A stretch of 64,000 bases of DNA, from the NCBI RefSeq assembly GCF_019049105.1, contig NZ_JAHQZR010000002.1, positions 1 to 64,000 on the forward strand. Direction: 5' to 3'. Position numbers and translations under genes: made by a program. Positions 7,908-57,923 of this stretch are shown piece after piece. Source of the stretch: Leucobacter chinensis (GTDB lineage Bacteria; Actinomycetota; Actinomycetes; Actinomycetales; Microbacteriaceae). Every line of letters starts with the position of its first letter. Position 1 is the first letter of the stretch. The notes beneath the pieces are model-generated. The model saw only the letters and a list, made by a program, of their open reading frames with translations. It did not search any database and was not told the origin of the DNA.

Positions 7908-8897
7908 GTGGCTGAGGCAAGCGCTGAGCAGCGTGTGTTGAGTCTGATTCTCGCTCTCTTAACCACGGGCGATCGCGGGTCGACAAAGCAGGCGCTGCTC
8001 TCGACGGTGTACGGCTACGCCGAGAGCTACCGACGGGGCGGCGATAACGCCTCGCTTGAACGAAAGTTCGAACGAGATAAAGATCAGCTTCGCGATCTCG
8101 GGATTCCACTCGAGACGTTCACACCCTACGATTCGAGCGGTAACAACCAAGAAACGCACTACCGCATTCGCAAGCAGGTGCTTCAGATTCCTGACACCCT
8201 GACCTTTAGTGACGACGAGCTGCGCATGCTCAACGCTGCGGCCCTCGTGTGGCAAGAGGGCAGCCTGAGCGTTGAATCGCGCAGGGCGATCATGAAGCTG
8301 GGCTCGCTCTCGGGCCCGCTCGTGAACGAGCCAGTGACGGTTGGGCCGGTGTTGACGATCGCCGAGCCCTCGGTTGCGGGCGTTCGCGAGGCGATGGTCG
8401 CCGGGCGAGACATCGCGTTCATGTACCGCAAGCCCGGCGAAGCGGGGAAGCAGCGAACGGTGGCGCCGCTGAGGCTGCACCGCGCCGACCGGCGATGGCA
8501 CCTCATCGCCTATGACCACGATCGTGATGACTACCGAACCTTCCTGCTTTCACGGATCGTGGGCGAGGTCACCATACTGCCGAACTCCTTTGACGAGGCG
8601 CTCGGCGAGGGCGCTTCAGCCGTTGAGCGCGAACTCGCAGAGCTCGAGGCGTCACGAGAAGCAACGCTCGTCGTGACGCCAGGATCACGGGCCGACCACG
8701 CACTAAGCGCCCGTGCCGTACGTCGCGACGAGGCCACCGGCTCGCTCACGCTCAACACCCTCGATTACGTTGCCCTTGCCGAAGAACTCATTGGGTATGG
8801 AGCCGACGTGAGTGTGGTCGAACCGAGCGATCTTATCGAGCATGTGCAACGGCTGGCATCGGCGGTCGCTACGCTTCACGGGGGGAACGCATCGTGA
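7908..8897 (+). CDS. pafB: WYL-domain transcriptional regulator PafB
   Basis: Half of the PafBC heteromeric activator, which in mycobacteria turns on the RecA-independent DNA damage response. The 329-residue protein has an N-terminal winged-helix region (about 1-65: EQRVLSLILALL, then GDNASLERKFERDKDQLRDLGIPL) and a middle linker. The WYL domain spans about 165-240, with WHLIAYD at 187-193 and FLLSRI after it. The GTG start follows AGGAGG with good spacing. It overlaps pafC by 4 bp. Confidence 0.93.
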   Translation: MAEASAEQRVLSLILALLTTGDRGSTKQALLSTVYGYAESYRRGGDNASLERKFERDKDQLRDLGIPLETFTPYDSSGNNQETHYRIRKQVLQIPDTLTFSDDELRMLNAAALVWQEGSLSVESRRAIMKLGSLSGPLVNEPVTVGPVLTIAEPSVAGVREAMVAGRDIAFMYRKPGEAGKQRTVAPLRLHRADRRWHLIAYDHDRDDYRTFLLSRIVGEVTILPNSFDEALGEGASAVERELAELEASREATLVVTPGSRADHALSARAVRRDEATGSLTLNTLDYVALAEELIGYGADVSVVEPSDLIEHVQRLASAVATLHGGNAS

Positions 8898-9898
8898 CGA
8901 ACACCGCATGGACCACCCCAGAGAAGGTTTCGCTGCTGCTGAACCTCATCGCGTATCTCAGGGCGAACGGCCCGACCGAGCTCAGCGACCTCGCGCAGCA
9001 CTTCGGTGTGCCTGAGAAGCAGGTGCGGAGGCTCGTCGAGTTCATCGGCACCGCGGGAGTGCCCGGTGAATCGGCGACCTACCAGCACCAGGATCTCTAC
9101 GACCTTGATTGGGACGCTCTTGAACTCGACGGCATTGTGCACCTGAAACACGTCGTAGGCGTTGATGGAACGCCACGATTCACCTCGACGCAGGCATCTG
9201 CGATTTTGGCAGGCCTGCACTCGATGAAGGCGCTGCTCACGCCAGAGCAGCGTACCGTTGCCAGTTCTGCGGAGGCAAAACTGCGGCTCGCGACCACCGC
9301 CGAGCCGACGACGCTCTCGGTGAGCACCGGCGATGATCCGCTTGCTGATCGGCTCGCGGTCGCCGACGAAGCGATCGCGGCTGGCAAACAGCTCACGTTT
9401 TCGTACCGTGGCGCAAATGATATTGCATCTGAACGCGTTGTCGACGTACATCGACTGTTCCAACTGCAGGGCGCATGGTGTTTCGAGGGCTGGTGCCACG
9501 ACCGTGAGGCAATGCGCACATTTCGCGTCGATCTTGCGAGGGGGCTTGCTGTGCTCGAGGCCGCGCAGACGCACCCGGCCGAGCACGAAAATCTCAACCG
9601 TGAGGCGAGTGAGACTGGCATCGATGCAGAGGCACTCGTTGACGAGACGGTGATGTATCGCTTGGGTCCGTGGGATCCCGAGGTGCTCGGCACCGAAGCC
9701 GACGGTAGGGCCCGCGTGCGGGTCGCGCTCATGCACGAGGCGAGGGCGATCACGCTCGTGAGCCTCGCCCCTGGCCTCATCGAACTCACGCAGCCCCCGC
9801 ACCTGCGCAGACTTGTCGCTGACTGGGCCGCCCAGGCCGCTCGTGCCGCCAACGGAGCGTGGCCTCAGGCTGGCACTGCAAAAGATTCGGTACACTAA
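8894..9898 (+). CDS. pafC: WYL-domain transcriptional regulator PafC
   Basis: Partner of PafB (334 residues). The N-terminal winged helix lies at about 9-55 (LLLNLIAYLRANGPTELSDL, then EKQVRRLVEFI). The WYL domain sits at about 155-230 with AWCFEGWCHD in the WYL position and MRTFRVDL after it. A C-terminal WCX-like extension follows. GTG start, 4-bp overlap with pafB, and tatC starts 4 nt after its stop, so the genes are co-transcribed. Confidence 0.92.
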   Translation: MTNTAWTTPEKVSLLLNLIAYLRANGPTELSDLAQHFGVPEKQVRRLVEFIGTAGVPGESATYQHQDLYDLDWDALELDGIVHLKHVVGVDGTPRFTSTQASAILAGLHSMKALLTPEQRTVASSAEAKLRLATTAEPTTLSVSTGDDPLADRLAVADEAIAAGKQLTFSYRGANDIASERVVDVHRLFQLQGAWCFEGWCHDREAMRTFRVDLARGLAVLEAAQTHPAEHENLNREASETGIDAEALVDETVMYRLGPWDPEVLGTEADGRARVRVALMHEARAITLVSLAPGLIELTQPPHLRRLVADWAAQAARAANGAWPQAGTAKDSVH

Positions 9899-55953: not shown

Positions 55954-57015
55954 ATGAGCGATGCCCCACCCCCTTTGCGCGACGAACAGCAAGACGTTGC
56001 GGCGCCCTTTGGGGTGCAACCGCCATCGCGTCGAACCCGCGTCATCACGCTCACCGTCGCAACTCTTGCAACCGTTGGCGTGGTTATCGCCGGAGCATCG
56101 GTTGCTCTTGATCTTGCCGACCGCTCGACGCGCGTCGAGTCGCGAAGCGAAACCCTTGCAGTCGAGGCCGCCGCACCCGCTGACCCGTATGCAGACGCGA
56201 TCGTGGTCGGCGAGATCGAACGCCCTGAGAGGCCTTCGCACTCCAATCCGATCGACTGGAAAGTGCCGGTCGATGCCCCGTTCGAGACCTTCCCAACGAA
56301 TTTCATTCAGCCTGAAAGCTCTGAATCGGTCTGGCTTGAGTGCAGCGACGAACAGTTCGCCTGGCTGAAAGAACACGCCGAGCCCTTTGACTCGATGTCA
56401 GATAGCAACGCGTTCAACCTCTCTCTCCGCAATTCGGCAAATACCGGCGGATCACTGCCCCTTGGCAACCTACGCTTCGAGGGCACCGAAGCCGAGAGCG
56501 TGGCATGGGTTGCGTTGGAGTGCTCGATTGGAGGACGCGGTGCTGCGGGTGGCGCGCAACCGATGTACATTGACATTGATGGAAGCGAGGCTGTGTACGG
56601 TGAGGTGCTCTCATCGTACGCTGAAGATGCGCAACCGGAAGGCTCTCCCGTCACGGTTAACCTCGCACCGGGTGAGATCACAGAACTCGTTTTGACTCGC
56701 GACCGAAACGTCAATACTCAACGCACCTATACAGGGCGTTTTCTTGCTGACGTGCTCGACGGGAGCGATGACACCGTCATTCTCGCGAACGATGTCGTGT
56801 TCCAACGGCAAAGGGTTTTGGGCTACAAGATTCACTACATCGGTGTCGATTATGCCCCCGAAGGCGAAGCCGGCTCGATGCTTTGCATACGCCCCGTTGG
56901 CGAGCCGAATGAACAGGGTTTCTTCGATGAGAGCGACCGAAGCGCTTGCAGCACAGCCGAGGTGGCAGAAATGCTCGCCGAGGCGGCAGCGATCGCCGAG
57001 CAGGAGGCCTTGTGA
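55954..57015 (+). CDS. Membrane-anchored extracytoplasmic protein, paralogue 1 (unknown)
   Basis: About 353 residues; the start could also be ATG 55933. A proline-rich N-terminus and RRTRVI precede one membrane segment (about 32-55). The rest is outside the cell. It contains WLECSDEQFAWLKEHAEPF, FNLSLRNSANTGGSLPLGNLRF and VTVNLAPGEITELVL. The same elements occur in the following gene. A Cys pair (WLEC and ALEC) and later CIRP and ACST could form disulfides. I recognise no family. It overlaps the next gene by 4 bp. Confidence 0.75.
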   Translation: MSDAPPPLRDEQQDVAAPFGVQPPSRRTRVITLTVATLATVGVVIAGASVALDLADRSTRVESRSETLAVEAAAPADPYADAIVVGEIERPERPSHSNPIDWKVPVDAPFETFPTNFIQPESSESVWLECSDEQFAWLKEHAEPFDSMSDSNAFNLSLRNSANTGGSLPLGNLRFEGTEAESVAWVALECSIGGRGAAGGAQPMYIDIDGSEAVYGEVLSSYAEDAQPEGSPVTVNLAPGEITELVLTRDRNVNTQRTYTGRFLADVLDGSDDTVILANDVVFQRQRVLGYKIHYIGVDYAPEGEAGSMLCIRPVGEPNEQGFFDESDRSACSTAEVAEMLAEAAAIAEQEAL

Positions 57016-57923
57016 CGCATAACGACCCAGACGAGCAGGGCGGCATCGCTCTACCAGATGCAGAAGCTAACCCAGGGCTCCCCCAGCCCGGAACACCTCG
57101 CCAAGAGCCGAAGAAGAAAGCTAGGCGTGGGTGGAGTACCACCAACAAGGTGCTTGGCGCGGTGATCGCCGTTGTTGGCGCGATCACCGGCACCATCACG
57201 GCTGTTGAGATAGTAACCCGCGACAGTACAAACTTCTCGCACCTCGAGATGTCGTTTGAACCCGTCACCGATGAGACCAGCGAGTGGGCTGTTACGGCAG
57301 CTCAGCTGAGCGAGCATGCGTTTCCCGCCGGCGCGAGGTGCACAGGCGATCAGCTCGACTGGCTGGAAGCCAACGCGATAGCGCTCAACCGCCACTACAT
57401 GCTCTCTCTCCGAAACACCGCGTCGAGCGGGGCCATGCTTGCGATCAACGACATCCGTTCCACGGCGCCCGAGGCGCCCGAACGGGGTGAGCTTTTCATG
57501 CGTGTGGTCTGCGACCCGACGGGCTTTCCCGCACGTGATCTCTTCTACGGCAAGCTCGTGGCAGACCGCCCCGACCTCGTCGCAACGAACGTCAACGTGA
57601 AGGGCGACGCTGCGGCGCAGCGCAACCCCGAGGTTCCGGTGAGCTTCAACCTCGGCCCTGGTGAGAGCGGTAAGATCCCGCTCGACCTCTTCGGTAAGTA
57701 CCCTGCTAACGGCGAAGTCGAGCTTACTGTCTACAGCGTAGATGAGCAGCGGGTTGAGCGGGTAGCAGGAAGCGACTTCACGATGCCGGCTCTGCTCTTT
57801 GGCGGAGACTGGTTTCTCGTCACAACCGATTCGGGCGTCGAATGCCGCCGCATCGAAGCAGGCGCGATCGAAACGTGCACGCTTGACGAGGCTCTGCACG
57901 AGATCGAGATTGCACGCCCCTAA
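57012..57923 (+). CDS. Membrane-anchored extracytoplasmic protein, paralogue 2 (unknown)
   Basis: A 303-residue protein with a polar N-terminus, one membrane segment (about 42-65), and an extracytoplasmic domain related to that of the previous protein. CTGDQLDWLEANAIAL aligns with CSDEQFAWLKEHAEPF. MLSLRNTASSGAMLAINDIRS aligns with LSLRNSANTGGSLPLGNLRF, and VSFNLGPGESGKIPL with VTVNLAPGEITELVL. Cys residues recur at similar places. GTG start overlapping the previous stop by 4 bp. A hairpin terminator follows. Function unknown; probable heteromer with the previous protein. Confidence 0.75.
   Translation: MTHNDPDEQGGIALPDAEANPGLPQPGTPRQEPKKKARRGWSTTNKVLGAVIAVVGAITGTITAVEIVTRDSTNFSHLEMSFEPVTDETSEWAVTAAQLSEHAFPAGARCTGDQLDWLEANAIALNRHYMLSLRNTASSGAMLAINDIRSTAPEAPERGELFMRVVCDPTGFPARDLFYGKLVADRPDLVATNVNVKGDAAAQRNPEVPVSFNLGPGESGKIPLDLFGKYPANGEVELTVYSVDEQRVERVAGSDFTMPALLFGGDWFLVTTDSGVECRRIEAGAIETCTLDEALHEIEIARP

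Follow-up and report, generated by a model that had tools for sequence, protein, structure and literature searches.

Two overlapping genes in the window, that is, the whole 64,000-nt stretch of DNA analysed here, encode a newly defined and unnamed protein pair, sparse in its distribution and missed by every family model that we used. We put at roughly 55% the probability that the two products, referred to as A and B, are obligate partners in a surface complex on the outer side of the cytoplasmic membrane, a heteromer and probably a heterodimer, which would be gained and lost horizontally as accessory cargo and have A as its variable arm. The genes act as one unit across two bacterial families, one plasmid and a reversal of gene order, as traced at eight loci: six Microbacteriaceae genomes (including those of the window, a congener, Protaetiibacter mangrovi (G250), G164, G202 and the MAG G389), a Leucobacter MAG and plasmid p232 of Arthrobacter sp. 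Rue61a.

A and B are diverged single-pass membrane proteins

The features of the pair are collected in Table 1. A SURF1 gene (PF02104, E 4.6e-33) lies 91 bases upstream of A on the same strand and a convergent gene for an ABC-F-type ATPase downstream of B; a promoter scan found no sigma-70-type promoter upstream of A.

Table 1. Features of the A/B locus, in window positions; dN/dS values are simple Nei-Gojobori estimates from two sequences per gene, against the one available congener
Feature	Positions	Strand	Basis and remarks
Gene A	55954..57015	+	353 aa, ATG start at 55954; open frame, A group of tree, dN/dS 0.125; product predicted to be a type II single-pass membrane protein with Ig-like ectodomain
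Gene B	57012..57923	+	303 aa, GTG start at 57012; open frame, B group of tree, dN/dS 0.112; product predicted to be a type II single-pass membrane protein with Ig-like ectodomain
GTGA, 4-base overlap of B start and A stop	57012..57015	+	sequence
AGGAGG, ribosome-binding-like site for B, within gene A	57002..57007	+	sequence; same site in congener
Membrane helix of A, residues 28-56	56035..56121	+	hydropathy, positive N flank; model helix 27-59
Ectodomain core of A, residues 64-285	56143..56808	+	predicted beta-sandwich, low confidence; model and structure matches
A motifs C130-x3-Q-x2-WL to SLRNSANTG165	56341..56448	+	alignment of 16
A motif VTVNLAPGE, residues 233-241	56650..56676	+	alignment of 16
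Membrane helix of B, residues 46-69	57147..57218	+	hydropathy; model helix 46-69
Predicted Ig-like ectodomain core of B, residues 75-263	57234..57800	+	model; structure matches
B motifs C110-x3-Q-x2-WL to SLRNTASSG140	57339..57431	+	alignment of 16
B motif VSFNLGPGE, residues 210-218	57639..57665	+	alignment of 16

The original prediction of two overlapping genes with one-helix topology, three matching motifs and strong divergence was borne out. The reading frames share four bases, each product has one hydrophobic segment, and all three motifs are present in both proteins, being placed in A at C130, Q134, W137 and L138, at S157 to G165 and at V233 to E241; the first motif of B consists of C110 and then QLDWL. 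Alone, A and B aligned weakly by BLASTP, with an E value of 1e-5 over 51 residues, yet profiles built separately from six A-type and six B-type proteins matched each other with a probability of 99.6% (E 6e-25, 208 columns). As judged from sequence, the A-type and B-type proteins form a pair of ancient sister groups stemming from one old duplication, which predates the spread of the family over two bacterial families.

Alignment of 16 A and B proteins revealed invariant residues at C130, W137, N160, C190, G240, G261, C311 and C332 (A numbering), and no invariant His or Met. All four invariant cysteines, found in 16/16 proteins, are located in the ectodomain, and the number of cysteines after the membrane helix is even throughout (four in 13 proteins, six in three), which suggests two disulphides per subunit. 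The helix carrying Cys-x3-QxxWL is probably the distinctive part of the family, and SLRNxAxxG and NLxPGE look like ordinary strand and turn motifs of a sandwich. Hydropathy and charge revealed a single hydrophobic segment with positive charge on its N-side in 16/16 proteins; the bulk of the A and B chains lies on the far side of the helix from this flank. A and B are predicted on these grounds to have the N-terminus inside, one membrane helix and an outer domain; the hydrophobic segment may alternatively belong to a signal peptide that is cleaved off.

Neither protein of the window could be assigned to a Pfam (best E 0.089, below cut-off), NCBIfam, PHROGs (best E 0.12) or PADLOC family, which agrees with the original statement that no family was recognised. 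Similarly, the best values for other members were E 0.014 in Pfam (12 proteins scanned) and 0.066 in NCBIfam (14 scanned), leaving aside the LRV_2 domain of the A protein from the Leucobacter MAG. Sequence searches of solved structures returned nothing for A alone and, for a 12-member profile, two matches, both with E over 1. The check set beforehand, a search for a clear match to a known family, accordingly came out empty, and the similarity between A and B was upheld at the profile level. Searches of an open-access library showed no papers on the A/B family; the genome paper of Arthrobacter sp. Rue61a (PMC3534580) treats, in part of its text, the type of plasmid and genes for metal resistance.

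Purifying selection acts on A as well as B (Table 1), which are thus real genes. By the same two-sequence comparison with the single congener, dN/dS was 0.034 for SURF1, 0.004 for the ABC-F gene, 0.015 for FabG and 0.102 for SerB, the last two named by eye. A and B are 84-88% identical to their congeneric counterparts, versus 97-100% for these four neighbours; they are retained, yet their protein sequences evolve faster than those of the neighbours, as is frequent among surface proteins.

Predicted ectodomain folds and additional domains

The model of B, computed with eight sequences, reached a mean pLDDT of 74.9. Values in its ectodomain were mostly 75-94, with dips to 61 (residues 171-180) and 69 (residues 201-210), and fell under 50 in the tail and membrane part. 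It resembles Ig-like domains such as those of a TRAP subunit, ApaG, RbmA and PapD-type chaperones (Z at most 6.3; best Foldseek E 7e-3). The A model, in which confidence is low (mean pLDDT 59.4), shares many of these matches, with Z at most 6.5; according to the note of the tool, Z at such levels may reflect only a common arrangement. B is described here as a predicted membrane-proximal Ig-like sandwich whose matches to many solved Ig-like domains (Z 4-6.3, under the level that the tool itself trusts) are generic. Structural similarity between A and B, a check proposed with the original prediction, was confirmed weakly, because of the low confidence of the A model. A viral fold library yielded one match below 1e-3; the protein concerned, from a siphovirus, is uncharacterised, and we took the match (TM 0.24-0.32) as generic.

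Additional domains were located on A. In the Leucobacter MAG, A carries LRV_2 (PF25591, E 1.4e-16; L069, 2696-2870) before the membrane helix, on its predicted inner side. This domain is absent from A, B and the whole genome of the window, and no match was reported for A of G202 or of the Microbacteriaceae MAG (contig L070). The latter protein has instead ~115 extra C-terminal residues (L070, 9590-9961), for which neither a Pfam nor a PDB sequence match was obtained. Tails resembling this addition may also occur on actinobacterial receptor kinases.

These fold matches bear on whether the pair could be a structural element of the envelope or of adhesion, such as a stator-like part or a surface-layer anchor, rather than a receptor. 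Archaeal FlaF/FlaG, the biofilm scaffold RbmA and pilus chaperones do appear among them, but all these matches are generic (Z at most 6.1) and we saw no genes for pili, archaella or surface layers among the annotated neighbours of the pair, so that we regard a purely structural function as unlikely. A surface receptor or adaptor is the most likely, though putative, role of the A/B pair.

The pair is rare and occupies varied genomic settings

A 12-member profile gave strong matches in 6/398 genomes of the Microbacteriaceae, the family of the window, each with exactly two matches that are adjacent. At E 0.01, 15 genomes were listed, and the nine beyond the strong six had one weak match each. No further members emerged from two order samples (347 and 396 genomes) or a class sample (246), all of which overlap the family set. 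The pair was found in 2/9 genomes of the genus of P. mangrovi and in 1/60 of that of G164, where two more genomes had a single weak match. Scanning of genome contigs added the Leucobacter MAG, and a close-relative scan of these contigs with B alone gave no match. Among 72,556 plasmid records a single one matched, the conjugative p232, in which A and B are both present. The family is rare and its distribution within genera patchy.

Reading of both strands at 39 loci with weak profile matches uncovered no frame with both Cys-Gln-Trp-Leu and NLxPGE, two motifs that co-occur in 10/10 known members used as control; three loci (L040, L057 and L077) have one of them. At the strongest of these, L077 of genome G758, a short lipoprotein-like frame on the minus strand (1471-2073) contains ETPLVVNLQPGDSGTLLIS, which resembles the NLxPGE turn of B, and lacks the cysteine motif. 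Only ~40 residues around NLQPGD are common to it and the family, and we left it out of the membership. Many remaining weak loci, inspected by eye, match in little beyond the membrane segment and were treated as chance, and a single weak match outside the genus (G042) corresponds to a LytR-like reading frame.

The surroundings of the pair differ among loci. SURF1 is upstream in the window, the congener and the Leucobacter MAG (3/8). In P. mangrovi the pair sits between isocitrate and malate/lactate dehydrogenase-family genes (icd and mdh), in G202 behind a Castor/Pollux-type channel, and in the Microbacteriaceae MAG on a contig with no recognised SURF1 and mostly unannotated neighbours (L032/L070). 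In G164 it lies beside a gene for a Na+/H+ antiporter (NhaA) fused to a DsbA-like thioredoxin domain (L030, 6933-8816), directly downstream of B, and a DndB/DpdB-like gene (E about 1e-6; L030, 11152-12432), next upstream of the pair; about 4 kb from A we noticed by eye an integrase-like frame (L030, 14953-15756). The search for a constant partner proposed with the original prediction ended without one: across the neighbourhoods examined, that of the MAG being mostly unannotated, no gene is constant, and no pathway is therefore indicated.

On p232 the proteins are annotated as hypothetical (WP_162486269.1 for A, WP_014923546.1 for B), with starts that leave out the membrane helices; both frames are open further upstream and take in the helices, beginning at 8698 (A) and at a TTG at 9746 (B) of the locus (L084, 8698-10807). 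They belong to the same paired family as those of the window, with pairwise identities of 32% (A) and 29% (B). A frame absent from the gene table, ~340 bases behind B (L084, 11149-11937), matches GmrSD_C (PF07510, E 1.6e-21) and DUF3761, and Swt1-HEPN, Abi and integrase-like genes occur within 10 kb of the pair.

A and B are 70-71% identical between P. mangrovi and G164, which belong to different genera, versus 34% (A) and 40% (B) between P. mangrovi and G202, which belong to one genus. Horizontal movement of the pair is the simplest reading and repeated loss is possible; A and B seem to be accessory cargo that moves between species.

Such a setting raises the question of a defence or anti-plasmid/phage surface module on mobile DNA, for instance a blocker of a surface receptor. 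The genes around the pair on p232, the DndB/DpdB-like gene and integrase-like frame of G164 and the patchy distribution all fit this proposal. On the other hand, PADLOC was empty for A and B of both the window and the plasmid, P. mangrovi B was unmatched in 50,697 phage records, which also led us to reject a phage origin, and the loci of the window, the congener, P. mangrovi and G202 have housekeeping neighbours. We consider a dedicated defence function quite unlikely. The plasmid copy makes it possible to test for a function of the pair in mobile-element or cell-cell biology.

A and B are always paired and diverge in step

At 8/8 loci the genes for A and B lie next to each other and overlap. 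The overlap amounts to 4 bases in seven of them and 8 bases on the plasmid, although in P. mangrovi and G164 B may start at an ATG right after the GTG, in which case the overlap would shrink to 1 base. Gene order is A-B in six loci and B-A in two, those of the Leucobacter MAG and the Microbacteriaceae MAG, both of which have a 4-base ATGA overlap.

In the tree, a single branch (support 98/98) splits the A and B groups. The supported nodes branch alike in the two halves, joining P. mangrovi with G164 and the Leucobacter MAG with the window's genus; the positions of G202, the Microbacteriaceae MAG and Arthrobacter have no support, Arthrobacter A being a long branch. The identity matrices of A and B correlate (rho 0.77), a value reached in 0/5000 label permutations. 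This correlated divergence is consistent with contact between A and B, yet it would, like their co-occurrence, be expected for any neighbouring genes that are inherited together. Together, co-occurrence, overlap and parallel divergence support an obligate A:B heteromer, in line with the original suggestion of a heteromeric pair or of specialised extracellular roles; the evidence is genetic.

As tandem paralogues, A and B might alternatively be redundant duplicates that act independently and are merely co-located. The duplication is old, yet neither gene stands alone at any of the eight loci, and the overlap is retained even where the gene order is swapped, which makes independent action improbable; we favour instead obligate subunits of one complex.

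SURF1 is an incidental neighbour

A SURF1 search of 24 genomes gave matches in 22, which, with the window and the congener set aside, leaves 20 other relatives. None of them has A or B within the 1.5-kb flanks of SURF1. A close ABC-F gene was found within this flank in 13/20 and was not seen in the flank of the other seven. In 12/13, SURF1 and ABC-F are separated by 1-267 bases, too small a space for the A/B pair. SURF1 and ABC-F being adjacent in relatives devoid of the pair, the gap between them looks like an insertion site, one that appears to be shared, with opposite gene order, by the genus of the window and by the Leucobacter MAG. In the thirteenth relative, G015, the gap measures 832 bases and holds an Ion_trans channel gene (PF00520; L091, 696-1514), so that it seems to accept varied cargo. 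The Leucobacter MAG also has a cutinase-family gene (PF01083, E 7e-25; L069, 3880-4887) between the pair and ABC-F, where the window has none.

The position after SURF1, to which the title of the original prediction gave prominence, is thus incidental. That the pair helps SURF1 to assemble haem-copper oxidase, for example as an outside chaperone, is very improbable, since the three SURF1-linked loci and a weak resemblance of the B fold to a Streptomyces copper chaperone (3zja, Z 4.4) are outweighed by five of eight loci away from SURF1 (icd/mdh, NhaA-DsbA, ion channel, MAG contig and plasmid), by the 20 relatives with SURF1 and no nearby A or B, and by the lack of any invariant His or Met in the 16 proteins; we rejected a SURF1 partnership on these grounds.

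Proposed complex and comparison with known systems

With the pairing of A and B well supported, our preferred reading remains a putative complex of the two on the external side of the cytoplasmic membrane. Coupled translation would set a 1:1 ratio of the subunits, each of which would be held by its two disulphides, and the ectodomains would pack together and bind something outside. B would be the constant partner and A the variable arm for specificity or output, a guess suggested by the fact that LRV_2 and the ~115-residue addition are both on A. Output to the inside through LRV_2 cannot be general, because this domain is found on 1/8 A proteins and the genome of the window is devoid of it. 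More tentatively, and on balance doubtfully, the pair may represent an undescribed mobile two-subunit receptor of actinobacteria, an Ig-like A:B heterodimer that senses or captures a ligand and whose A subunit is rewired by domain swaps, with LRV_2 inside or a C-terminal domain outside. If the heterodimer is real, the pair would serve as a compact Gram-positive model for Ig-like surface complexes made of two subunits.

Among known systems, LRV_2 proteins (PF25591) are related to the pair through the inside N-terminus of A from the Leucobacter MAG and not through A or B of the window. FlaF and FlaG, stator proteins of the archaellum, have one N-terminal membrane helix, as A and B are predicted to, and we know of no invariant cysteine pairs in them. 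They present an outer beta-sandwich, such as is predicted for A and B (4p94 matched B; 5tuh and 6pbk matched the A model), and, according to the title of 6pbk, two different sandwich subunits were solved as a complex. They differ from A/B in that there is no sequence match and the fold scores are generic, with Z 5.5-5.7 among ties and a low-confidence A model; no archaellum genes were noticed among the annotated neighbours of the pair. The best fold match of B lies in the Sec61-TRAP translocon, in the lumenal domain of a TRAP subunit (8b5l_q, 8rjc_5 and 9n9j_5) that we take to be TRAP alpha. B and 8b5l_q align over 102 residues (Z 6.3, rmsd 3.7, 8% identity), a score in the range that the tool calls common. 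The TRAP subunit is eukaryotic and differs from A/B in topology and partners; it resembles what is proposed for them in being a membrane-tethered Ig-like domain within a heteromer.
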